A DNA stretch of 60,856 nt, taken from Krasilnikovozyma curviuscula. Taxonomy: Eukaryota > Basidiomycota > Tremellomycetes > Cystofilobasidiales > Mrakiaceae. The stretch lies in NCBI GenBank assembly GCA_014825775.1, contig MVAQ01000121.1, positions 1-60,856 of the forward strand. The letters run 5' to 3'. This document shows positions 1 through 44,458 of the stretch, piece after piece (position 1 is the stretch's first letter; each line of letters opens with the position of its first letter). The notes under the pieces are model-generated. The model searched no databases. It was not told the origin of the DNA and was given only the letters and a program-made list of their open reading frames with translations. The position numbers and the translations under genes are program-made.

Positions 1-636
1 GTTTTGTGCTTCTTCTCCAAGGTCAAGCACCTAAAGGTGATCCTACCAAACAACTACAAGCTCTTCGATACCCTGATGGCAACTTCTCTTTCAACAAAAC
101 GCCTCACGTCCCTGCAAACCCTTGAGCTCATCGATGGACCGGACCAACTCGCTCTAAGCGGTCTGGGAGAAGATCAGATCCAGTCGTTCATCATCAACCT
201 CTCACCTCCCAACCTCATCTACCACTGCCGACATATCAACCTCCTCCCACCTCTCGAACCTGTGATTACCCTCCTACCAGAGACCAGCACAGTGCATCAC
301 TTCCTGCGTCAGGCGGTGCACACCCTTGAGGTCGACTCGCTCGACCTCAATGACATCGTCAACCTCTTCATAGCTACGTCCCAGCACTCGTCCATCACCC
401 TGGAAAACAATATTAAGAAGATTACGGTTAACGAGCCGCTCGACCCTAACAGCTCCTTCGTTGGCACTCTTCGCATCCTTCTCAAGCTCTTGACATGGTC
501 CACGCTGTTTATGAAGTTGGAGACCGTTATCATACACGCTGCTGATGACGGGCGGCGGGAGAAGTTCAAGGCAGTTCTGAAGAGTGAGGAGAGGAAATTG
601 AAGAAGGCCAGGTTCGATGTGGTAGTGGTTGGGTGA
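1..636 (+). CDS. 3' end of an unknown protein gene (cut by window edge)
   Basis: An open frame enters from the left edge and runs about 210 codons to a TGA at 634-636. I do not recognise a family. The protein is leucine-rich with evenly spaced hydrophobic stretches, rather like the LRR/F-box-type proteins common in basidiomycetes, and ends in a basic helix (EERKLKKARF) followed by a valine-rich tail. No catalytic motif is visible. The true start lies outside the window, so length and N-terminal domains are unknown. It converges on the SYLF gene. Coding is supported by a long uninterrupted frame with protein-like composition; function is not assigned. Confidence 0.55.
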   Translation, partial: VLCFFSKVKHLKVILPNNYKLFDTLMATSLSTKRLTSLQTLELIDGPDQLALSGLGEDQIQSFIINLSPPNLIYHCRHINLLPPLEPVITLLPETSTVHHFLRQAVHTLEVDSLDLNDIVNLFIATSQHSSITLENNIKKITVNEPLDPNSSFVGTLRILLKLLTWSTLFMKLETVIIHAADDGRREKFKAVLKSEERKLKKARFDVVVVG

Positions 637-897
637 AGTTTGAAAGATTCGCTGGTGTATAGAGAGGAAGAATAAGTTGTTTAATGAAAGAGGGGTATCC
701 TATGGTATAGTGGAAGTGACATTAACTGCAACTGCACGCAAGGAAGCGATGGTAACAGATGAAAGTGAATTCATAATAGTCGTGAATTCTGGTCGTCAGG
801 CAAACAAATTTAAACAAAGAGGTATGGATACAGTTCGTCGTTTCGTCTTTTTTACACCTTCACATCCTCTACACTATATTCCGCTGGGCCAGTATCC

Positions 898-2570
898 TCA
901 GAACTGGTGTTCCATGGGATCATTGGGATTCGGTTTCGTCAAAGTTCCGCTCCTCTTACGAAAAGCTCTCTCCTCCTGGTCGATCCTCCTCTGAATCGCC
1001 TCTTTACTATCCACGTCTTCCTGAAAGTGTTCATCTTCCACCTCATAAGGGGCAGCATAAAGCGAACCGCTGTGATATAGCGCAGGCGAGTCGACGATAA
1101 AGTCTTGTTGTTCTCGCTGTGGTGAGTCAACAAACGGATTGGTAACTGGGGACGAAATGGAGGACGGTATTCCTTCTGCTGATTGGATAGTTCTGATGAG
1201 TGAATGAGCTTCCAATGGCATTTCGACTCTTCCTCGGAGCTGTGTTTTTAGCGAACAATGAGAGCAGCGTATCAGGTTAGTCATGTTCGGGAGAGAAGTG
1301 GATGTTGAGAAGAACCCACTATATCTTCAGGTCTAACTTTGGGCCATTGGTAGAACCTCGCGTTCTCCTCCCATCTCGTGACAAACACTTGTCCGACCAA
1401 CTCAACCCCGGCGTACAACCCTCGACTCCTCACGTAGCTTAGCACAGGCTTAAGTTCCAGTCCCGATTCTGCAGCTGCTCCTGCACCCCACGGACCAGCT
1501 GCCACGGCAAGCTCCCCTCCGAGTGTGGGCTTTGCAAGTTTGGAGAATGCGGACACGGATTTTTGGGTGCGCAGGATCAGGACGGCGTCGTAGATGTCAA
1601 TTCCAAACATAAAACCTGGAGACAAAAAGAACTCAGAAGATGTCAGAAGGCGAGGACTGTATTTATTTTTACTCCACATCTTCTCACCTCCCGACAAATT
1701 GAATGGCATGATTCCAGAAGGCGGTGACCAGCCTGGCACACCATAGAAAAGGAAGCTGTCAACGACACGCCGCCTTGACAAATTCTTAGTATTGTGCACT
1801 CACTTCCATCAGGTAACCTCGCAATGATCAGTCCGTTTCCGTTTGCTCCTCCCATAGGCGCAATACCGGCTCGCATAGCTATGGCGATGACAACAAAGCG
1901 CCGGGGATGTGTCAGCGTAAGACTTACGACGACGACGTCAACGACCCAGCCGCGACGGTAACGAGACTTACAAGTAAAGATGACGATCCCCTGAGCCTGA
2001 CGTATAACCCCCGGAGGAATTCTCATCATTGTCTTCTTCTGCTGCTTCCATTTCGGTGTTTTTTTATCTGCTCTTAGGGAGGAGGTGTTTGGGTCGTCGA
2101 CTTCTATGCCTTCGATGGTGAACGCGCGTAGTATCGAGTTGCACTTCTTGATTTCTTCTGGAAAGTCACCGTTGATAGCCCAGAAGGAATTGGAACCGAC
2201 CTGAGGACCGATGGTGGGTGAGGTTGTGGTGAGCGGACGAAAGCAAGGACAACAGGAAAGGAACGAGACTGTCAGCAAACTATCTAGAAGGTATAGCAAG
2301 ATAATGGTTTAAATACAAAAGAGAAGAGCTAACCTTTCCAGAGAGCTTGTTAGCTCCAGCACCGAGCTTATCATTCGCCTTATCAGCGACATCATGAACT
2401 GCGTGCCCTAATCCCTTCAGCCTGCCTTTCCAACCACCCTGCTGCTTCCCATCGCTAATGGCTTGCTTTGAGGTAAAAAAGGGGGCACTAGAGTTGTAGT
2501 CAGAGTTGACCGCATTGTAGATTCTTGGTGGAAGTGGAGGTGGGGGAGCGTAATCTACTGCTGGACGCAT
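898..2570 (-). CDS. SYLF-domain (Ysc84/SH3YL1-like) protein
   Basis: Multi-exon gene. The start is the ATG at 2570 (MRPAVDYAPPPPLPPR). A proline-rich N-terminus and an amphipathic stretch (GWKGRLKGLGHAVHDVADKA) come first. The SYLF (DUF500) domain follows over several exons: RIPPGVIRQAQGIVIFT, GIAPMGGANGNGLIIARLPDG, WSPPSGI, PGFMFGIDIYDAVLILRTQK, LGGELAVAAGPWGAGA and GLYAGVELVGQVFVTRWEEN. In yeast this domain binds phosphoinositides and actin at endocytic patches. The C-terminus (DSKEAIQRRIDQEERAFRKRSG...PMEHQF) is charged, and I see no SH3 domain of the yeast Lsb3/Ysc84 type. A TATA-like box lies about 100 bp upstream. Family assignment is firm; exact exon borders are approximate. Confidence 0.88.
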
Positions 2571-3021: not shown

Positions 3022-5465
3022 CTATACATGCTCAATCCTCTTCTCCTCTCCCTTCTCAGATCCCTCGGCAGAAGTTGTGATAGCGGCTCGCTCACGCATG
3101 TCAGCCATGACAACGGCATGAGCACGACGAGCAGGAAGTCCAGGAGCGAAAAGTTCATCTAGAACGAATAAGAATAGAAAGTGAGCCTTGATACCAAAAA
3201 GTTCAAAAGCTGAGGTGGAAGGTGACTTACCCATCCTCTCCAATGGGATCCTGGCCGTTTCAGGCAGAATGAAGTACACAAAGGGGATGGAGAGGACCAT
3301 CATCGTGGCAAAGAAGATGTAGACTCCAAAGCCCATGGTCGTAAACATGTTGGGTGTGAACCTCGCAATGATGAATCCCCAGAACCAGTTTGATGCCGCG
3401 ACGACGGCTTGAGAAAAGACTCGGACTTGTTGTGGGAAGATCTCAGCACCGACGACCTGTGAGATTAAAATGAAGAATAGTGAGAATTGTGTTCAGAAAG
3501 AGAGAGAAAGGGATGAAAGGGCGTACCCATGGGGTTCCATTCCAAGTAGGCGAGTAGAAAACGGTCCAGAGGTAGAGGAAAGCTAAGGCAGATTGACCTC
3601 CTGGAGTAAGTTTGGCACTTGGGTGGGCGATAGAGCCAGAAACTACGACACGGAAGAAGTTGGTTTCAACGAGCTGAGATCACAGGACAAGAAGGAAAGT
3701 CTCACTCTTAATGTAAGCACCGATCTGTAGATACCGACAAAATCCATAGAAATAATCAGCTTGTGGTACAAACAAAGGGGTTGATGCGTGTGTGACTCAC
3801 GTAGTACATGCAGAAAGCGCCTCCGATGGACCCAATAAGCAGAGTGTTTCTTCTGCCAAACTTGTCAACGACAAAGAGCAGCCAAACAATAGCACCGACA
3901 GTCTTAATGACACCGTAGACACTATAGTAGAGCAGTGTTAGAATAATGGGACATTGGAAAAACGAGGTGAGAAGTCGGACATACCCAGTTGTCAAGAGCG
4001 AGGTGGAAGTACCGGAGATACCCTGTTTGAGCAAAAGGAGATTTGAGTCAGAAACATTCTTCCGATATAAGAAGGGAGACTTGACATACGATTGATTTGA
4101 AGATGGCTTTTGCGAAGAGGGGAAGAGGAATTAGAGATTAGATGAACAACTCGTTATGGATCTAGAGCTGATTGCTTACTTGGACTGAGAGGGAGAAATT
4201 TATAGGTTAGTTGCTGGCACAGTCGGTCAAATATGGGATGGTCACTCACGAGTAATAGTTGATGGCGTTAATACCAGTACCGTTCTGCGTATCAGAAAAA
4301 AGTCACAAATTAGAGACAACTGGGCCAGAACAAGGGGATAGTAATTCAAACTCACCTGCCAAATGAAGAGAGATGAAGCAAGACACAATCTAGCGAACAG
4401 TGCTTTGCTCTTGAAGACTTCCATCATCGGTGCCAAGAATCCAGCACCACTTAGGCTCTGTTCGTGGTCAAGCGCATTCTGAGTATTCTCGTATTGACGG
4501 ATGATGTATGGGTGGTCGGCTGGCAAGTTACGGATGTAACAGAGATTCTTTAATGCTGCTTCACCTCGGCCGCGAGATTGTAACCATCGTGGCGATTCGA
4601 CCATGAAGAAGGAACCGGCGAGGAGCATACCGCCTGGAACGAGCTGGATGGCATCATCATTTTCAAGTCATTCAGTTTCAAGTCGAGTTTGGAAACCTAA
4701 GGTGATGGAACGAGAGGTGTTAAACTCACCTGAATAGCAAATGGAATGACCCATTGCTTGTGGGATGATGGAATATGAAGATTGACCCCACTTCAAAACA
4801 ATACCAGTCAGCGTCTGTGTGTAGTGGCTGCTGACACCAAACTCACTAATTGATCCAGAAACCAACAATACCACCAATCTGCCATGACAGCTCGTACAGA
4901 CCCAACAGACGTCCTCTGATCGCAGCTGGGGCGATCTCAGAGATGTAACAAGGCGTCAAGTTGGAAGCAGCACCAACGCCGAGACCAGCAATGATTCGGC
5001 CAGCGTAGATGAGACCAAGACCACGAGAGTGGTTTGCTCCCAACATAAGCCCGGAACCGAAAACAAAGAAGGCGGCGGAGAGCACTAAAAGAAAGAAGGT
5101 GCAGGTAAGTAAACATTGCGGCGGTAACCAGAAACAGCGGACTCACTGATTCCGTACTTCCTTCCAATGAAGTAACCAATTGGCCATGCTGCAAATGCGC
5201 CGAAGAAGCAACCTCCTTGGAATGTCGAAACAATGTTTGCAGAGAGGAAGTTGAACGAGGCGGTTGACACCTTCGACAGACCGAACTCGTTTTTAAATGC
5301 TGCCAACGCGAGGGTCGTACCGATGAAGGCTGAATCGTAGCCTATCATCACTGCTGCAAATGCAGCGATGCCAGAACAGAAGTAGACCCTCCAGTTATAG
5401 ATTTCAGAAGGCGTCTCGGTTTCTTCCTTCCATTCGTTGGAGTCTTTGGATTCGACAGCGACCAT
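3022..5465 (-). CDS. MFS sugar/quinate-permease-type transporter
   Basis: Spliced gene encoding a 12-TM sugar porter of the fungal quinate permease (QutD/qa-y) type. Visible hallmarks in order: EIYNWRVYFCSGIAAFAAVMIGYDSAFIGT (TM1, split here only for reading), AGRIIAGLGVGAASNLTPCY with EIAPAAIRGRLLG, VESPRWLQSRGR (PESPRW motif), an NGTGINAINYYS-like segment after FIWQ, VDKFGRRNTLLIGS (GRR motif) and ILPETARIPLERM replacing PETKG. The last exon gives DELFAPGLPARRAHAVVMADMRER, a tail typical of quinate permeases. The frame at the 3' end runs through an intron (about 3165-3232) that must be removed. Substrate is inferred from subfamily only. A decayed copy of its 5' end lies at about 52.9-53.3 kb. 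Confidence 0.87.
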
Positions 5466-7861
5466 GATGGAATGATAAGAGGTGGGTGAGCTGAGGGGTT
5501 GGTCGAGGAGAAATTTGTGTAGTTCTGATGGAGCAAAAAATGGGGCACGCGCGCCCGAGTGGAGAAAAAATGAAATTCCAGACGGTAAGCAACAGCAACA
5601 GCGACGACATCATTGCTAAGAGCCAGGCTTACCAGCAGATTAGTTTAAGTTCTGAAGATCTGTTTGATGGCGCAAGAAAATGAAAGCCAAGGAAATAAAC
5701 CAAGCCAGGGCGTTCAGGAATGTTGTCTCGCGTGCACGGAAGAAATCGCGCCTAGACTACTCACCAGGCTCTTTCCTTCAAACTCTTGAGTTGCTGCCCA
5801 GTAAAAGTTGATAATGCGGAGAACTAGAGGAGATGGCGGTGGAAGGTGTAGGGAAAAACAGCGGGGGTCGTTCCTCTTTATACTTCTGACTAGACAGTAC
5901 AAGACAGAGCCGACCCCAGGAAGAACTCTGAGGAGCCCTGCGTGCTATTTTTGATGGTGGCCCACAGCGGCAAGAGGCAAGTAAGGGGAAGAAGGAGTCT
6001 CCAGCGGCAGAAGAATTCACCGGCTGGCCGGTCTCCTCTGCCGCGCTGCGTATTTATAAACGCAGCGGGTAAACAAACACACGGAGGCACGTTCTTCACG
6101 AGATGGGATGGGACGAATGTGTGATCGGTGGGTTGTGCTCTGCCATAATGATCTTCAAGGGAAGTTTGGTTCTTCCTTGCGGATCAACGCAAAACATATC
6201 AGAAGCATGGATTTCCCCACCCATGGACCGACGACGAGCAATGAAGTTCCACTGCAGTAGTTCGCTCTCCTGGAAGAACATGGCAGGCGTTTCAAATCCA
6301 ACGGGAAGAAATTCATAAATTCGGTCATAGACGCTTTTCGTGATTGGGCGTGCGTTGCGTCAACGTAACTGAAACTTCCAATTTACAGTCCTTCTCAATA
6401 TCATACCATTTCCATTATCTGCGTAGTGTTCTCTTTCATTACGTTATTCAAAGTCCTGCTGAGAAACTCTCGTAAGGTGGAAGCCACTGGTCGAGATGTG
6501 TTAAAAATGGCATACTGGGGCCTTCAAGTTAGGTAAGAAGCTCTGTAGGACAATCTGATTTTTTGTTGCGCTGGATGGCTAACACATCTGACAGGTGTCA
6601 TTGATTTGAACCGAATAAACATTTTGAGCATATTAGAACGGACTCTGTTAGACCAGGTCATCGTTTTGTGATTTATGATGGAGCAAAGTTAGGGAGGTTT
6701 GCTAGACATTCCGTTAGGTTTTTTTTACAGAAGTGATTTCCATATGGGGAGTTGCAAATATACCTTCATATCTTTTCATATGTTACTTCTCGGGAAACAG
6801 ACTCCCCCAGAATTTCAGAAGTTTCTGAAGACCTCCCCAGCTCGTCAGCATTCCAACCCTTTCTCACTACCTCACGGTTTCCCTTCGACCCCCAATTCTT
6901 CAGATCGTAACAGGAAAACATAACAGAATTTAGGGGGATACTTGTTCTTCAAAAGCTCAACACTCTGAATGTACGTTGAAGACGTTGGACTGCCTCTTCC
7001 AATCGTTTTAGTCCAGCGTACAGCCAGCTGTCACTTCTAGGCGTTGGAAATTTCTTTGTTTCTTCTATGGTTCAAGAGTGAAGGATGATTGACTGTGTAT
7101 TTACTACATTACAGCCCTTTCTGTCTCATAAGAAGGAGTGACTTGGGTACAACAGTCTGGTTTAACTGGCTGCAAGTAACTAGTATTGTTTTGATCGCGC
7201 GATCAATAATCGACAACTAAGGCATTTGCTGCAATCTCCGATTTCCAAAAATATCACCAAAAAATCAGTTCTGTTATATTTCGTGGTGTACGAAGCAGAG
7301 AAAGGTATCGGAAAGCAGCCACATCGTATCAAAAAATACTCCTCTCTCTCCTGTCCAATCGAACTTGTACTTTAGGTGGTGGTGAATGAGAAAAGAGAAG
7401 GAAGAAAATGGTTCAAGAAAGAGTTTTGGAGGAGCACCAGGGACTCCCAGTTCTACCAAACAATTTCCTGCGAAGATGGGCACCCTCGAACAAGTAATCT
7501 TCAGCATACACAGCTTTTTGAGAGATTTCTGGGACTCTAGATTAGACGAAAGAATTATTTCCCGGTTGTAAAACCTGTAAATTTTGTATAGTCAAGGCGA
7601 AGTGAGTCTTTTCCAGCGGGATTTTGACTGTTCTGGCTTGTAGCGCCGTCCAGAAGATGATTGAGGTTCCTTCAACAACAATCTCGATGTTTATAGGCAT
7701 CACTGAAGTAGGATTATTCAACAGTGACTATCTTGAAGATCATCTTCTAGCCTGTGCTTCGAATTAGAAAAGCTCAAGGCCAGACAGCTCATTCGTTTCC
7801 TCGCCTTGGATACCCTTCACCAGGCTAATTCGACGCGATGAGCTAATTCCATCAGTCGACC
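5466..7861. other. Intergenic region, no convincing gene
   Basis: About 2.4 kb between the divergent MFS transporter and MLH3. It should hold both promoters. Pyrimidine-rich stretches and an imperfect GC-rich inverted repeat (6019-6032) are visible. A minus-strand frame at 6096-6365 has protein-like character (KSVYDRIYEFLPVGFETP; WNFIARRRSMGGEIHASDM) but lacks an in-frame ATG at its beginning, and frames on both strands are open there, so it is not called a gene. Confidence 0.5.
6019..6032. repeat. Inverted repeat ACCGGC-TG-GCCGGT upstream of the transporter
   Basis: Perfect 6-bp arms around a 2-bp spacer, about 555 bp upstream of the transporter ATG. It contains CCGG/CGG triplets of the kind bound by Zn2Cys6 dimers. 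Its regulatory role is inference. Confidence 0.3.
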
Positions 7862-22848: not shown

Positions 22849-25800
22849 ATGGCGGTCCCTCCAACCTCCCCCGTCACTGGCGACGAAGTGCCCGCCCACT
22901 TCATCCACGCAAACTCCCTCTTCTTCCAAGGTGTGTGAACGGTTATCACTCACAGTTTCTCTCTCATCGGTACTTATATATATCCTGTCATATCCAACAG
23001 ATGTCAAAGGTAGATCCGTTTTATTGCGAGGGGTCAACCTCTCTGGCTCGTCCAAAGCACCGCCCAACCACCCGTCGCAGGACCACACAGACTTCTGGGA
23101 AGACGCAAAGAACGGGGGAAATTCCTTCATCGGAACACCACTGAACCTTGAAGATGGTTCAGCAGAGGTCCACTTGGCGAGGCTGCGAGGGTGGGGGTTC
23201 AACTGCTTGAGATATGTCGTAACTTGGGAGAGCTTGGAGCGGGAGGGACCGTGAGTTGACACTTCTCGGTAGCCCGTATCGCTTGCTGCCGTTATCACTA
23301 ACTCTTGTTCTATTTATTGGCTTTCTTATTAGTGGCAAGTACGACTTCGAGTTCATGGACTATACTATCGAGGTTCTTCGTCGCTGTAAAGCCCACGGTT
23401 TCTACGTAAGCAACATTATTTTCTGATCCGCTATTTCCCCATTTCCACTTTCGTTGTTATTTCTGGAGGAGTTTGAGAAAGAAAAAGGAGTGGTGGAATG
23501 GTTTGAAAGGGGACGATTCTATCACACGGGTGGGGGCCTTTCCTGGGCTCAAGAACGCCAATGGCGCCGCCCTGCCCTCTCCATGATGTTTCCACGAAGG
23601 CCAGGCTAAGAAACGAAGGGAAAGAGATGCGACCTGTTGTTAAAAGCTAGGTAGTGGCCTTGCCAGTGTCAAGGAACGCTGTGCTTTTGGTTGCAGGCTG
23701 CTCTCGGTACCGTCGGCTCCCCTTCCGTCGTCGATGCTTACTCATGTTTGTTCTTTGTCTGAACATGACCCAACCATTACAACAGGTGTACATGGATCCA
23801 CATCAAGATGTTTGGTCACGCTTCTCTGGGGGCTCAGGAGCACCTTATTGGACCCTCCCCCTTGCAGGCTTCTCCCCTTTCGCAATCACATCCACCCTCT
23901 CTGCCGTCGTCCACTCTGAGTACCCTTCAGCGTCAAGTCCGAATCCAGCAGCGCTGCCGGCGATGATCTGGTCAACCAACTACTCCCGCCTGTTAATCCA
24001 GACAATGTTCACCCTGTTTTACGCTGGGCGCGACTTTGCACCGCTCTGTATCGTCGACGGCGTCAATGTTCAAGACTATCTTCAATCGCATTATATATCT
24101 GCGTTCTCGCACCTCGCTGAACGAATCCACGCTGCGGGGAATCTGGAGGATGTGTGTGTGCTGGGCTGGGACTCGATGAACGAGCCAGGTGAAGGCTACA
24201 TTGGAATCGAAGACCTGGGCCAATTCCCGAAGAGCCAGGCGATGAAGAAAGGTCCGACGCCAACGAGTTTCGATGGTATGCTCCTTGGCATGGGCCGCGC
24301 GGTCGAGGTTGAGAATTGGAGCTTTGGCAGTATGGGCCCGCAGAGGGATGGAACGGTTGTGGTCGACCCCAGGGGTGTTAAGGTGTGGGCAACGGAGGAG
24401 GATCTTGGGGAAGTTGACGGTGAGAGTGAAAAGTGGGGTTGGAAGAGGGATAAAGGATGGAAAGTTGGCACCTGCAGTGAGTCGTTTTTATTTGTCGGAG
24501 CCTATATCACCTCTTGTTCTGATGCATTTGTCGGTTTGTATTAATCATCAGTTTGGGCTCAGCACGGTGTTTGGGAACCATCATTAAATCAGCTTCTCGT
24601 CCCGGACTATTTCAGCAGAGTCGCCAAATCAGAATGTACGCTTTTCTAAACTCAACTCATTTTTCATATGTCCCAGGGGTAGCTGACAAAAACTTACGAT
24701 TAATTATTGCAGCCCCTGATGAGTATGAAAATGTTATATTCATATCCAGGTACTGGCGACCTCACTTTTACGGCTGGGCGAAGATGGTTCGCCAACAACA
24801 CCCAGAGGCGATCCTTTTCATTAATGGGCCTGTCTTCCATCCACTACCTGAGCTCGACGAAGAAGTGCTTTGCGGGAGGGTCTGTGTCTCGCAACACTAC
24901 TACGATGGCTTGACGTTAATGTGAGTCAACATTTCTTGCACATCGTGTTTTGAAATGGGCTGCGGTTCACACCTGATTTGATGCCTTGCTATCTTATCGA
25001 CCTTCCAGCACTCGACACTGGAACTGGTTCAATGCTGACGCCCTGGGTATCCTCCGAGGTAAATACTCTTCCGTACTCCAAGGTGTACGAATCGGCGAGC
25101 CGGCAATCCGAAAATGTCTGCAGCAGCAGCTGGGCGTCCTTAAGTCGGACACGGCTGTGCTCGGTAATTACCCAAGCCTGATTGGCGAGATTGGTATCCC
25201 GTACGATATGGACGGGAAAAAAGCATATGGGTACGTCGATGGCGGGAAGGGAGAGGGTGATTACTCCTCACAGATGAAGGCGCTCGACGCTAGTCTCAAC
25301 GCTTGTGACGGCGAGAATGTCCTCAACTACACCATATGGAACTACTGCGTCGACAAGTAAGTTTAGACCATTTCTTAATTTCCCTTCGATTATGTTTTTA
25401 TAATAATTGATTTATCCTTTGCAGCTCACACGAATGGGGCGACAACTGGAACCTCGAAGATCTCTCTCTTTGGTCTGAAGACGACACCGTCAAATCCCGA
25501 CAACGCCGAGACGATCAAGGAGGAGATACCGAACGTGACGTCATTGGTTACCAATCGTCCACTTCCGTGAACCAACATGCACCTTCCTTCAATAAAATGC
25601 CATACCCTAAAGAATCCCGCACATCCAACTTGGCAGTCCCTAGCTCGTCCACTCTCTCATCATCCAATTCATGTATAGCTCTTCGTCGTCCAAATGCCAT
25701 CCCAGAAATCACCAGCGAAATTCTCGTGGACGGTTCTCGTGCGCTTGGCGCTTTCTGTCGACCTTACCCTGTCGCGACAGTCGGCAGACCCCTGCGAATC

Positions 25801-28556: not shown

Positions 28557-31424
28557 CTACGCTTTTGCCTTCTGGATGAACTCCTTCACCTTGATGGGGT
28601 CCTTACCGGTCTTCCCAGTGTCTTTCGCATACTCAACACCGCTGCTGACGTCGACCGCCCAAGGCTTGACCACACTGACGGCCTCACGCACATTTTCAGG
28701 GTTAAGTCCACCAGCAAGCAGAAAGGGGACACCGGCGTTGGAAGTGACGGTCCAGTCGAAGGACTCGCCAGTACCCCCAGCGGCACCACCACTCGCTGAT
28801 GCCGCGTCGAGCAGGACATAGTTATTTAACCCGGGCCTAGTGATTTCTGTTGGAATGGACTTGTCTGTCGGAGACACGTGGAACACTTTGATGACGGGTA
28901 CGGGAATGAAGTGTGACCATTCGGCGGGCTCGGAGCCGTGCAGCTGAACAACATCGAGGGTGAGCGTCTGCACCATGTGGAGAATGTATGCCAGAGGTTG
29001 GTTCTGGAAGACACCGACAAGTCGCGGGATGGTGGTTCCGTCGGCAGTGATGGAGAGGGTAGTAGAAAACTCGAACCAGGAAGGTGTTTGGTCTTCTGCT
29101 GATGCAGATGGAACTGACGAAGACAAGAGGGAGGATTTGACGACCTTCTTGGCAGCTTCATGAACTGCTTCTGAGATTTTCAGACCGTTTTCGATAGTCA
29201 CGCATCGCTTGGAGCCTTCAACGAGAATGATGCCGACAAAGTCAGCGCCAGCATCGAGCGCGACCTGTGCGTCGCCCCTCGACTGGACCCCACAGATCTT
29301 GACGAGCGGCTTCTTCTCCGTCGTACCTGTTGATGGTTCTGGTGGTGGGAGAGCGAGGAGTTCCCGGATGAAGGCTTTTGGATCCGACGCCCTCATGAGA
29401 TATTCACCTACCAATAAGCCCCTGACACCCTCTTTCAGGTAACCCTCGACGCTCTCCCTGCCGGTGATACCGCTAAGAGCAATGATCAAAGGCTGTTGTT
29501 GCTGATGGCCACCACTAGCAGCACCTTCTTTGAGTGCATCGGCGACCCTCGACGTCGTGCCCATGTCGACCTCGAAGTCATGTAGGTTCCGGTTGTTGAC
29601 ACCAATCACCTTAGCCCCTACACTGAGCGCGAGTTTAAGCTCTTCCGGATTGTTGACTTCCACGAGGGGTTCCATGCCGAGCGACACAGAATGGTCGTAC
29701 AGCTCCTGAAGCAACACAGGATCAAGCATCGCGACGATCAGCAGGACCGTGTCAGCTCCGTACAAGCGCGCCTCATCAATCTGATATTTGTCTAGAATAA
29801 AATCCTTTCTCAGTACGGCGGGGCGATTGGGGAGCTGGCCGAGCGCAAGTCGGACTGAGAGCATGTCCTGTAGGGAGCCTTTGAACCACTTGGGCTCTGT
29901 CAGGACCGAGATGACGGATGCCCCTGCGTGCGCGTATGTGAGCGCCTGCGTGGCAGCATTGGTGTCTGGTGCGATGGATCCTTTGGAGGGTGACGCGCGC
30001 TTGACTTCGGCGAAGACGGCAGGGATCGACGGCGAGGAAGTGGTGATTCGCGGAATGAGCGGGATGAGAGGTGGGCTCAGGTGTAAAGAGAGGTTCGTTT
30101 GGAGCTGGGCTGGAGTAGAGGATGGGTGGGAGGAGATGAGCTGGACGTCCGACAGGCGCTGAGCGTAAATCTGCGTCAGGATTGTGGTGATTGATTTATT
30201 AGACTGACGGTCGCTGGGGGTGGTGGTAGAGGAAGAGGAAGAATGGGTGCCATTGGCGACGAGAGGACCTGCGGCTGATGTTGGCGCGGATGGGATAGCA
30301 GTTGGGATCGTCTCTTGGCCAACACCAAACTCACGATTGTCGTCCCACGTCGCACCTTTCAGCTTGAGGAAGTTGCCCATCAGTTCCATGCCGTGTTCAC
30401 TCAGAACTGTGTGTGAGGAGAGAGAAAGAACAAATATCGTGAGTTTATATTACAGCAAAAGTACAAAGTCAATGTTCGATTGATAGTTGGATCATTCAGA
30501 CTTACCAGACTCTGGATGGTACTGAACTGCCTCGACAGCATATTTCCTGTGTCTGACACCCATAACCACGCCGCCCTTATCACCCTCCGCCTCTACTGTC
30601 GTACTTGTCACTTGAAGATCGGCGGGAAGGGTCAGGATGGACGCGGCCAACGAGTGATATCGTGTACATTTGATATTCTGTGGGAGAGAGTGAAAGAGAC
30701 CTCGGGCGTCGTGCTTGACTAGAGAGGTTTTCCCGTGAAGAATTTCACCAGCGTATGAAATCTGAAAAAGGAGAGAAAGACAAAAGCGATAAGTGGTTTT
30801 GAAGTTGAGGTGTCAAAGAAAGGAGGTGGCGTCGAGTGAAGTGATTCTCCGTAGACACCACAAAGCGGACGGGGTGAGCAGGGACTAACCTCTCCTCCAA
30901 GCTCATGAACTAGACATTGCAGTCCCATACATACACCCAGTATAGGCAGCTGACACAAGAACAAAGGAAAAAAAAGTGAGTCACAACCAGAACTTTTTCC
31001 TCCAATATTCCGAGTCATTCGTTCGTCAAGACAGAAAAAGAGGAAGAAGCAAAGTGAACTCACTTTGCCGAGTCCCCACCTTATCACATCTCTTGAAATT
31101 CCAGAGTCTGTTGAAGGGTGTCCTGGCCCTGGCGAGATGACAATGTTTCGAATGAGGCCCGATTGGAACAGCGTCTACGAGAGAAAATAAAGGAGACAGG
31201 AGGGGGAAAACAAACCCAGAGTCAGCAAGATAGTGAGAGCAGGAAGATCCCAATAAGAAAAGAGATGTAATAAGAATATGACTAACGTCGATCTCTGGGA
31301 TAGTAATTTGGTCGTTTCGTACAACCTGGACGTCTGCACCGAGATTTCCCAAGAATTGGTAGAGATTGTGGGTGAAGGAGTCGTAATTGTCAATCATCAG
31401 CGTCTTCCCAGTAGGTAAAGCCAT
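28557..31424 (-). CDS. TRP1: Trifunctional tryptophan biosynthesis protein (anthranilate synthase II / IGPS / PRAI)
   Basis: Cytosolic fusion enzyme with the glutaminase subunit of anthranilate synthase, indole-3-glycerol-phosphate synthase and phosphoribosylanthranilate isomerase, in the order G-C-F usual for fungi. The ATG at 31424 starts [20 protein letters not shown], followed by [32 protein letters not shown] (catalytic Cys) and YHPESVLSEHG (His-Glu). A Ser/Thr/Pro-rich linker precedes [56 protein letters not shown] and [19 protein letters not shown] shows [56 protein letters not shown] and [20 protein letters not shown]. The last 610 codons are one exon; introns cluster in the TrpG part. 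All catalytic signatures are present. Confidence 0.96.
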
Positions 31425-31702
31425 CTTTGCTGCAGCAGTCAACAAAATTTGACTTGAGGCTGATGGAGGTTCGAGTAGCCTCGCCCGCCCTCTTGTTTCG
31501 CTCGACAGCCACAGCCAACATTTACCTTTGCAATGGACCAAGTGAGATTAATTCAATGCGAACCTTGATCATCCTTCTGATACTGACGTATTGTATATGT
31601 ATATCTGTGTCCAGAACGCTTTCAAGCAGCTGCTCTCTGCACCCAGACCCTCTTCGTCCAGTGCGGCTGCTGTTCTCGGTGGGGGGGCCTCAAAGAGACA
31701 AC
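31425..31702. promoter_or_regulatory. Short divergent promoter between TRP1 and RED
   Basis: Only about 280 bp separate the TRP1 ATG (31424, minus) from the RED-like ATG (31703, plus), so both promoters and 5' UTRs share this interval. No specific site could be assigned. Confidence 0.5.
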
Positions 31703-40429: not shown

Positions 40430-42025
40430 CTATTCCTTTAAGTCCCAAAACCTAACGGTCCCATACAAATCAGCTGAGATCAAAATATTACCATCGCCTC
40501 CAAATACGAATGGTCCAAACCCTTCAGATCTTTTCGTGTTTTGTCTGTAGGCCGGAACAAGCTCCCACTTCTTGTTCTTGTCGTAGTTATACACAACAAT
40601 CCTTCCATCCGGGACTGCAAAGGCGACGTAGTTGAAAGATGGGGATACCGCGAGTTCTTCGATCTCAAGGTGCCCAGGGAACCAAGTCCGATGATCGTTA
40701 GGTGTACCGTGTTCAGCATGCCAGTACTGAATGCATTTCCCACCCCCTTCAGCTGAGACATCAAACATTTTGACAATACCTTCTGCTGATCCCACTGCGA
40801 GAAGTGTTCCATCTGGATTAAAACCCAACGTCCGACTCCAATCAATAAATCCACCCAACTTGGCAACTTCTTCTCCAGTTTCAAGATCCCACACATAAAC
40901 GAAATGATCTCCAGAACCAACGGCGATTAATTTAGAGTCTGGTGAGATTGCACCCGCCCAGTTCTGACTACCCGTGTGCAAAGTGTGCTCAAGATGTCCG
41001 GTACTGAAATCCCATATTTTAATAGTACCGTCCCAAGAAGATGAGGCGATAAATTTAGAGTTTGGGGAAGAACCAACCCACATTATTGGGCCGTCGTGCT
41101 GGAGAGTGAATTTGATAACGCCGGTCTGGATACTGACCGCTGAGATGGTGTGATCCATCAGGTTGCGGGAGAGGACGTACAACAAAGAACCATCTTCGCT
41201 AAAAGGTTTAGAGCCAAAACCTGCAAGAAAAGATTGAGCATATTGTGGTGGGTGGCTTGATTGGGAGAGGCTGCCTGGCATTGGGGAGTGTCTACTGTAT
41301 GGGTGTTGGTCGATCTCTTGTAGAACTGAACTGCTACCGTCTGTTCCCACGTATACCATCTGTCCAGACTCTCCATTGGTGACATCCCACTTCTTGTCAT
41401 ATCCTGCTCCAACCTCAACCTCACCTGAAACCTTCTCCCTTCCCAAATCCCAAACCTTCACCATAGATTTACGAACAGCCCGATGCTCCTTGTCCACCTC
41501 ATTAAAAGAAGATGAGACAACAAGAACATTGCTGTCTCGAGGATTGAATGCGATGTTTGTTATTTCACCAAGCTGATGAAGAATACAGATGAGATAACGA
41601 TTGGTTGGATCGGAAATGTCGTATATGTGGATTTCCCCCGCTGGTTGGCTCGCAGCGAAGAAAGTCCCATCTCCACTAAGAGAGATAGCATTTGCTTTGA
41701 CTCGAGACTCAAAAGTGATCTGATTTTTTGGGCGTGGAAAGCTGCTGATATCCCAAAGCATTGGGTGGCCAGGGAAGTACGACGCGTTTTCTCCATTCTG
41801 ATTGAAATCACTGGTGAGAGTGTGATTGTAGATATCGATAAATTGTTCAAGAGCTGGACCGGCTGGCCCTGCTGTAACCTGGGAAATTATGAAAGGCACC
41901 AAGAGCCAGGAAGTGCAGAGGGTGTTGAGGAGATCTTTTGGAATTTGGAGGGTTAGTCTCCTTGTACATACACTCCGTCAAACAGGTCAGGAAAAAGAGC
42001 ACTCACTAGGTTTCTTAATTAGCAT
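40430..42025 (-). CDS. Secreted WD40-repeat protein, copy 1
   Basis: A beta-propeller protein predicted to enter the secretory pathway. Exon 1 (42025-42007) gives MLIKKP; joining to 41934 keeps the frame and yields MLIKKPNLLNTLCTSWLLVP plus FIISQVTAGPAGPA, a signal peptide with a basic n-region, a hydrophobic core and a likely cut after VTA; total 507 residues. WD repeats follow: GEIHIYDISD, SMVKVWDLGR, IASSSWDGTIKIWDFS, IAVGSGDHFVYVWDLE, LAVGSAEGIVKMFDVS, GRIVVYNYD and a closing LYGTVRFWDLKE. Possible N-glycosylation sites NHT and NAS lie just after the signal. It resembles the neighbour at 42.9-44.5 kb in plan. The joining intron would end in AAG; an alternative start inside exon 2 is not available as ATG. 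Function is unknown. Confidence 0.78.
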
Positions 42026-42916
42026 CTTATCAAAGAGATACACTCAGTCCTTCAAATGAAGTCTATGGTTGGGAGGAGATAAGCAGAATTGAACTTCTCG
42101 CTGGAGGGTTACATAAAAGATCTGCACAGCGGCTGACCCGCTGTCACCCGCTGTGCAGAGCTAGAGCGTGAGAGAGGCAGTCGTCTGTTGCTCTTGCAGC
42201 CCTCAGTGGATCTTTTAGCTGCCTGAACTCGAAGCTAACAACTATCGTCATCTCAGGGTCTTCTACCTCTCCAACCATTGAATATGACTGCACAGTGGAA
42301 ATGGCTCATAACAAGTTTGAGACCACGCTGGTCAGCCTTCGAAGACGCACATTGAAGTCCCACTGCAAGGAATGCTAAAATTCGTATGAGAATACGGGAG
42401 CTGTCGCAGGTGTAAGCACCCACCAAGTGGTAATACAATCAACATTTTTCTTTTCAATCGGCTATGGGCACGGTCTATAATACCGGTACCTTCTTCCAGC
42501 ACACATTGATCACCAACAGAGTACATCTCTTTACTACAAGTGATGAAGAAGTATCATTGGTCCCCACTGCGCTGCCCTCCAGCCACCGATCCGAACAAAA
42601 AAACAAAGACAATCGCGGAAAAGGCAAAGAACGGTCAGTGAACTACAGTTGCGATACTAACTTTTTTTTTCAACTTTACCACAATACAGCGAGTGTAGTT
42701 GGAGGCAGTATGACAGCACGGCCAGGTGAAATCTGACCCCTTTCTATTCTGTATCTTACGGGAGGCATACCTTCTGTATACACCCTTATAGCTGATTTCT
42801 TTCAGTGTCACGGATGGATAACGAAGTGGGAAATAGAGTTGAGAAAACTAGTATGAGCAAGCAATGTGATACGAAGACAGGTCCGCGACAAAGTAAATCA
42901 GACAGAATAACACTCA
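42026..42916. other. Intergenic region between the two WD40 genes
   Basis: About 890 bp that must carry the promoter of copy 1. It contains the strong inverted repeat at 42121-42159. Short frames only (for example 42464-42736 plus), without family features. Confidence 0.5.
42121..42159. repeat. Near-perfect inverted repeat, 17-bp arms, 5-nt loop
   Basis: Left arm TCTGCACAGCGGCTGAC, loop CCGCT, right arm GTCACCCGCTGTGCAGA. Sixteen of 17 arm positions pair. It lies about 95-135 bp upstream of the copy 1 ATG at 42025, inside the likely promoter. It could be an operator for a dimeric regulator, a hairpin in the 5' UTR, or the remains of a small mobile element; sequence alone does not decide. Confidence 0.6.
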
Positions 42917-44458
42917 TCAAATGAATTTCCAAATTTGAACCTTTGAGCTTTGGGAATGACCCCAAAACAAAGTTCCGTCTCTGTCAACCCTTCCAAAGGC
43001 AAACTTGACTCGATCATTGACAGTCATCTCCTCAGCGACTACCTCCCACTTCCGGTTTTTGACAAAGTCGAAGACGATGACTGAGCCATTGCTGAATGAA
43101 TATGGAATGTAGGATGATTCGATTTGGTGAGACCAGTCCAGCTGATAGGTAGCACCAGCTGTAGATGGGCCCTTCCAAAGTCTGACAGGTTGTACTGAGA
43201 TGGCGGTGCCAGTGATAGCAACTTCTAGGTCAAGCTGTCCAGTTGTGTAGACATGGATCGAAGTGTTGTCAGACTCTACCACTTCCACCGCAATGACCAG
43301 TCCACCCCGTTTACCACCGTCCCATCTCAACGTCCTGACAACTCCCTCTAGCTTCAACAGCCTGAAGACGACGGAGGCACTTCGCACGTCCCAGATTCGA
43401 ATCACACCATTAGATGATGCAACAGCAAGAAAGTTGGAGTCGATAGACCAAGCTGCGAGCGAAGGCTGGGCTAAAATGCCGAGCTCTAACTTGAGGTCCG
43501 GAGCGCCGTTCAACTCTGACGAGATTCGAACCGTATTATCCCACGAGGTACTGGCGATAAGGTTGGAGTACGGATTAGGGGACGATTGTATACAGCGGAT
43601 TTTGCTGTCGTGAGCTAATATATATTCAACGGTGCGGGTGGTCATGTTGAGAGCGTTGAGGGTACTGCCACCGTCGGTGAGGTAGAAAAACAACGAACCC
43701 TCGTAATTGAAGTATGCTGAAGTGGAATCAACGAGTGAAGGTGAGAGATTATTTGTGGGTAAAGCCGAAGGTTTGGCCATTAATGTGTATATGTATGGTG
43801 CTGGTGCAATCTTAGAGTCGATTTTGAGAGTGAGAGTTTCCGGATTGAAGTCGAAAACCATCTCTTCGGCATCTACTGAAGGAACATAGATCTCCTCAGC
43901 CATGAACATGATATTTCCCCCCTTCCCATTTCCGTCCTGCATCATCACCCAATCACCCTCCCTGTCACCCAACTCGAACGCGTCGACTAAGTCCCAGATC
44001 TTGACGTCCGTCTGATAAAGGATGGCGTCGCGACCTTCTTCCACTGGCATCTTCCATCTTGAGCCGGCAACAAGGATAGAGTTATTTTGCGGACTGAAGG
44101 AAAGCGAGGTTATTTCTCCCCTTTGTTGGACGTGATGAGTTCGACGAAGATAAGCGGTGTTTGAGACATTGTAAACGTTGATTTCACCTGTAGAGAGACC
44201 AACCGCCAGTGTCATTCGATTTGAAGAGATAGCCATGACAGTCACTCCTCCTCTGCCGTAATCGAACTGCTTGAGTAAAGCGACAGATTGGATGTTTACA
44301 TGGGAAGCGTAGGAGCCGTCTTGTGTGAATTGAAGCGGGATGGATTTGGCGTTGATGTCAAGGTGAGGAATAGTAGGCCTGCTGACGAGTGGGAGAGCTT
44401 GAGACAATGCAGAGATAGGGAGAACGATGCAGACGACCAAGAGTGGCTTGAACAGCAT
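42917..44458 (-). CDS. Secreted WD40-repeat protein, copy 2
   Basis: Single-exon gene of 513 residues. The first ATG of the frame is at 44458; upstream codons of the same frame lack ATG. It starts MLFKPLLVVCIVLPISALSQ followed by ALPLVSRP, a clear signal peptide with a likely cut after SQA. WD-type blades: GEINVYNVS, TDVKIWDLVDAFELG, IASTSWDNTVRISSEL, VASSNGVIRIWDVRSAS, and a last blade ending SSKVQIWKFI. Several N-x-S/T sequons (NVS, NNS, NMT, NTS, NGS) fit passage through the ER. Layout, length and the C-terminal KNRKWEVV segment (KNKKWELV in copy 1) show that the two are diverged tandem paralogues. Most WD40 proteins are cytosolic or nuclear, so export is unusual. Function is unknown. Confidence 0.85.
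   Translation of the reverse strand: MLFKPLLVVCIVLPISALSQALPLVSRPTIPHLDINAKSIPLQFTQDGSYASHVNIQSVALLKQFDYGRGGVTVMAISSNRMTLAVGLSTGEINVYNVSNTAYLRRTHHVQQRGEITSLSFSPQNNSILVAGSRWKMPVEEGRDAILYQTDVKIWDLVDAFELGDREGDWVMMQDGNGKGGNIMFMAEEIYVPSVDAEEMVFDFNPETLTLKIDSKIAPAPYIYTLMAKPSALPTNNLSPSLVDSTSAYFNYEGSLFFYLTDGGSTLNALNMTTRTVEYILAHDSKIRCIQSSPNPYSNLIASTSWDNTVRISSELNGAPDLKLELGILAQPSLAAWSIDSNFLAVASSNGVIRIWDVRSASVVFRLLKLEGVVRTLRWDGGKRGGLVIAVEVVESDNTSIHVYTTGQLDLEVAITGTAISVQPVRLWKGPSTAGATYQLDWSHQIESSYIPYSFSNGSVIVFDFVKNRKWEVVAEEMTVNDRVKFAFGRVDRDGTLFWGHSQSSKVQIWKFI

Follow-up and report, generated by a model that had tools for sequence, protein, structure and literature searches.

Two neighbouring genes, here called A and B and both lying on the minus strand of a contig of 60,856 nucleotides (the window, meaning the whole stretch of DNA that was analysed), appear to be two of the five members of a family of WD40 beta-propeller proteins that would enter the secretory pathway and serve in non-catalytic binding outside the cytosol, a reading to which we give, from the sequences, a probability of about 0.65. 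Export of the family by itself is likely in our judgement, and a place of action that is extracellular or at the cell surface is probable to a lesser degree. Few binding scaffolds are as common in eukaryotes as WD40 propellers, and they are generally regarded as intracellular: if the reading is true, a family of fungal propellers that has retained its export signal widens the range of places where the WD40 fold works and supplies candidate cell-surface or secreted binders, and annotation by WD40 repeats alone may misplace such proteins.

A five-member WD40 family

Gene B (42917..44458, minus strand) is intronless and encodes 513 amino acids in a single frame that starts at the ATG at 44458, while gene A (40430..42025, minus strand) encodes 507 amino acids in two exons (exon 1, 42025..42007; exon 2, 41934..40430 including the stop) on either side of a predicted 72-nt intron (41935..42006) whose donor, branch site and acceptor read GTGAGT, CTAAC and AAAAG. 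The initial annotation had described both neighbours as WD40 genes and Pfam agrees, with scores for PF00400 of 81.3 bits (A) and 51.3 bits (B) against a cut-off of 27. A matches 46 Pfam families and B 34, and the figures given here come from the best 25 of each: within these, both proteins also exceed the cut-off of the generic ANAPC4_WD40 model (22.9; A scores 57.8 and B 37.5), while HPS5 (36.6 vs 34) and IFT140_2nd (27.9 vs 27) are barely exceeded by A and WDR19 (cut-off 27) is passed or touched by both (27 in A, 28.5 in B), over short stretches that we read as WD40 cross-matches. The best Pfam model by E-value among the 25 listed is the THOC3 propeller (Beta-prop_THOC3, PF25174), but A (164.9 bits) and B (54.2 bits) stay far below its cut-off of 305, and what sets their family apart from it is a leader, an N-terminal segment, an N-K/R-K-W-E motif and a low number of cysteines. 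NCBIfam gave weak repeat models and nothing else.

Eight blade-like repeats can be recognized by eye in A. The AlphaFold models are partial: using nine sequences, the mean pLDDT was 59, with central blades that were modelled well and values below 50 at residues 3-68, 163-230 and 395-429, and using two sequences it was 49. When the partial nine-sequence model was compared with the PDB, WD40 propellers led the structural matches listed, including RACK1 and G-beta chains, and searches of the PDB by sequence returned generic WD40 chains, with 2ymu as the best. A and B resemble the WD40 superfamily both in repeats that pass a curated cut-off and in their top structural matches. The propeller fold is what the family has in common with RACK1 and G-beta, which are cytosolic and leaderless; this comparison concerns the fold.

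An alignment of A with B shows them to be homologous (E 8e-26, with 25% identity across 467 columns), and three further members came to light when A, B, C and E served as queries against the genome: C (contig C335, 530 aa, intronless), D (contig C342, 496 aa, one predicted intron) and E (contig C12, 464 aa, two predicted introns). At E ≤ 1e-3, queries B and C find the five family loci only, and queries A and E also reach other WD40 genes, weakly. Pairwise identity among the paralogues is 22 to 37% (local BLASTP), and 40 alignment columns are invariant; these include F, G and A of the N-terminal segment as well as the N, K, W and E close to the C-terminus. The KN(K/R)KWE segment that had been pointed out at the C-termini of A (KNKKWELV, 40556..40579, minus strand) and B (KNRKWEVV, 43037..43060, minus strand) was indeed recovered by alignment, as N-K/R-K-W-E, in all five members. 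Likewise, an N-terminal segment that precedes the first blade (SDFNQNGENASYFPGHPMLW in A, 41753..41812, minus strand, from the alignment) has an F..G..A part that is common to all five and a P..W part that is found in A, C, D and E and not in B; its G-x-P-x-x-W occurs in A, C and D, reads S-Y-P-K-Q-W in E and is absent in B. The family looks intron-poor: the open frames that hold A, B and C span 515, 529 and 564 codons, compared to a median of 141 in the 27 control WD40 frames described below. The four introns predicted in its genes are short (64 to 83 nt), and those of A, D and E have no common position by eye.

In a tree of the five proteins, B and C were separated from A, D and E with a support of 100/100, while the order within A, D and E stayed unsettled. 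B and C are also each other's best match in the genome searches, in agreement with this grouping. Since A and B fall into different groups, the two neighbours seem to come from two old subfamilies despite their adjacency, so that they are old relatives rather than sisters and not the duplicated pair that they had been taken for. A recent tandem duplication of A and B was therefore rejected on the basis of the tree, with the caution that B and C form its two longest branches and that B, the longest, was flagged as a long branch. Of the duplicated, exported WD40 family that was originally proposed, the likely exported family stands and has grown from two genes to five, whereas the recent tandem duplication does not.

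Export-type N-termini and cysteine content

The initial annotation had proposed that both proteins start with an export-type leader and a VTA or SQA cut site, and this is borne out, for A by way of the predicted intron and for both with sites chosen by inspection. In B, a basic n-region and a hydrophobic core make up the putative signal peptide MLFKPLLVVCIVLPISALSQA (44396..44458, minus strand), with a cut expected between SQA and LP. In A, the main frame is open above the hydrophobic core, yet it has no ATG before Met65; the predicted intron connects ATGCTAATTAAGAAACCTA, which carries the start ATG, to this core and main frame, so that the putative signal peptide MLIKKPNLLNTLCTSWLLVPFIISQVTA (41870..42025, minus strand) is interrupted by the intron and would be cut between VTA and GP. 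An in-frame stop lies 7 codons upstream of the start ATG of A.

A hydrophobic stretch was found in the first residues of all five family members. To score it, we used a simple, self-written rule (an N-terminal hydrophobic leader and a small-x-small site at the start codon), which is crude, is not SignalP and gives first cut sites that sometimes differ from those chosen by eye. The five proteins all pass this rule, compared to none of 40 internal methionines and roughly 5 to 10% of family proteins after shuffling. The three paralogues C, D and E are the close homologues in which an absence of the leader could have spoken against export, and each of them has one by this rule. As a further null, 8 of 119 ATG-started frames of at least 100 aa, most of which are probably not real genes, pass the rule; these frames were taken from the window and from 44 fetched loci, once three frames that belong to D and E, of which two pass, had been taken out of an initial 10/122. 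The leaders diverge in sequence while their hydrophobicity is retained, and those of C and D have no basic residue ahead of the core. Concerning the start sites, there is no second in-frame ATG between the upstream stop and the model's first Met in B, C and E, and the next Met after the leader is residue 65 in A, 75 in B, 53 in C and 95 in E, which is inside or past the conserved N-terminal segment. In D, an in-frame stop lies two codons upstream of the ATG, and Met22 and Met27 are alternative starts behind the hydrophobic core. In E, a run of 24 residues without charge (7 to 30) precedes NRK, and VTS is a possible cut site. At the other end, none of the five proteins has a hydrophobic tail or a KDEL/HDEL-type C-terminus.

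The mature parts of the five proteins contain 7 cysteines in 2391 residues, compared to 97 in 4777 residues of control WD40 frames (p 1.4e-10), the controls being 27 distinct open frames that surround the 30 strongest WD40 hits in the genome, with no family member among them and with some non-coding ends. A stricter count gave 7 of 2160 residues after residue 70, compared to 18 of 1116 within 30 control WD40 repeats (p 1.4e-4); both p-values overstate the difference, because the five members are related and not independent.

N-glycosylation sequons had also been put forward in support of export, an argument that we do not retain. The observed numbers (2, 6, 7, 3 and 4 in A to E) are close to those expected (3.1, 4.2, 4.5, 3.2 and 3.3), so that the 2 in A (p 0.84) and the 6 in B (p 0.22) do not exceed what composition gives. 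The density of sequons is double that of the controls (22/2391 vs 22/4777, p 0.024), but we do not count it as evidence for export since, given each protein's own composition, it is no higher than expected. An excess of sequons is not required for secretion.

Relatives elsewhere and place of action

When B alone was compared with a protein collection, two proteins were found at E ≤ 1e-3, both kinase-WD40 fusions, while a profile of the family matched 345 proteins with a best E of 5.6e-80. An organism is named for 10 of the 120 listed among these 345 matches: nine are bacteria, and the tenth is the fungus Lenzites betulinus, in whose protein the simple rule recognizes no leader. Among 122 matches from both searches that were fetched, 53 of the 99 Met-starting proteins pass a near-identical leader rule, suggesting that export of WD40 proteins may be widespread among bacteria; the profile contains the leaders of the family and may therefore favour leader-bearing matches. 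These apparently bacterial proteins resemble the family in having repeats behind a leader, but by strict patterns none of the 122 has a KKWE-type motif or the N-terminal segment, and we thus judge the profile matches to be generic WD40 proteins. A search with residues 22-140 of D gave 324 candidates, none at E ≤ 1, and the C-terminal pattern matched 424 stretches in prokaryote genomes, none of which belongs to a relative. We consequently considered and set aside a horizontal origin from bacteria as unsupported, given that none of the fetched matches, strong as the profile matches are, has the family motifs by strict patterns and that neither the segment of D nor the C-terminal pattern led to a relative. 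No family member was found outside this genome in the collections searched, in which fungal coverage is uncertain, so that this result says little on other fungi.

Propellers outside the cytosol are known from yeast Vps10 and the dipeptidyl aminopeptidases, which are luminal or type II proteins of other propeller families and which have a catalytic or transmembrane part. The likeness to these would lie in the place of the propeller, while A to D seem to have neither a catalytic nor a transmembrane part. By titles and the beginnings of abstracts, no exported fungal WD40 family appeared among the literature matches listed, in a search that left subscription journals largely outside, and exact phrases such as 'secreted WD40' matched a cyanobacterial review only. 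The words 'signal peptide' and 'secreted' do not occur in the main text of an article on prokaryotic WD40 proteins (PMC5587647). A table row of PMC4000054 places a WD40-annotated spot among the secretome proteins of Cochliobolus lunatus, so that isolated records of WD40 proteins from outside fungal cells do exist; with a value of 109.9 in that row, taken as predicted kDa, this protein would be about twice the size of the family members.

How the family may work can be outlined from these features. The leader would be cleaved in A to D, and, considering that these proteins have neither a hydrophobic tail nor a KDEL/HDEL-type ending, they may be released from the cell or end up in its wall or vacuole. 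E would either be cleaved, possibly at VTS, or be kept as a membrane-tethered form. The propeller would then bind a protein or a glycan outside the cytosol, as a platform without catalytic activity. More tentatively, and with somewhat less than even confidence, a eukaryotic lineage may have turned the WD40 propeller into a dedicated extracellular binding family with its own end segments, few cysteines, at least two old subfamilies and one member that is possibly membrane-tethered.

Several other readings were weighed against this. Leaders and a low cysteine content fit any luminal site equally well and E is possibly membrane-tethered, as would suit proteins that reside in the lumen of the ER, the Golgi or the vacuole, for example as folding or sorting helpers, instead of acting at the cell surface or outside the cell. 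We regard such a residence as unlikely, since a KDEL/HDEL-like ending is found in none of the five and since an identity of 22 to 37% among paralogues would be more divergence than expected of a housekeeping luminal factor. Considering that WD40 proteins of eukaryotes mostly work in the cytosol or the nucleus, the family could also consist of ordinary intracellular scaffolds whose hydrophobic starts are wrong start sites or uncleaved anchors, with the propeller facing the cytosol: the start of A depends on a predicted intron, Met22 and Met27 of D lie behind the core and the topology of E is ambiguous by charge. This appears quite improbable to us in view of the hydrophobic starts of five out of five divergent paralogues, of the depletion in cysteines and of the position of the next Met in A, B, C and E, inside or past the N-terminal segment.

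Finally, the weaker WD40 scores of B and its branch, the longest of the tree, could be taken as signs that the two genes have lost their function and are diverging as remnants or pseudogenes. We give this almost no credit, because A, B and C each keep one uninterrupted frame (of 515, 529 and 564 codons) despite their strong divergence and because the family motifs are retained. An exported family of binding propellers, including A and B, is thus the reading that we prefer.

Genomic setting

The contig that carries A and B is one of 387 in an assembly that totals 22.4 Mb, and we take the genome for a fungal one. Elsewhere in the window, a single frame at 28557..30389 contains IGPS and PRAI domains (Pfam), and a frame upstream of it on the same strand (31026..31541) has an amidotransferase-like start by eye; together, these two frames read by eye like a fused tryptophan gene of the fungal type. 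The fusion of amidotransferase, IGPS and PRAI in this order is typical of fungi. Another frame of the window (23654-24544), delimited mechanically, gave no Pfam match at E ≤ 0.001 and presumably resembles a fungal GH5 glucosylceramidase or sterol-glucosidase.

The flanks of the family genes were compared frame by frame, on both sides of A/B, C and D and on the upstream side of E. The only pair that recurs consists of aldo-keto-reductase-like genes (by eye) that lie upstream of C and E on the same strand (locus L046, about 290-1410, minus strand; locus L049, about 4650-5990, plus strand); no such gene was seen in the flanks examined for A and B, and its recurrence is perhaps a coincidence in a large gene family. 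The intergenic region of A and B holds an inverted repeat (42118-42162), some 93 bases upstream of the start of A, with 20-nt arms that are 90% complementary and 5 nt apart; it could be a regulatory site or have arisen by chance.
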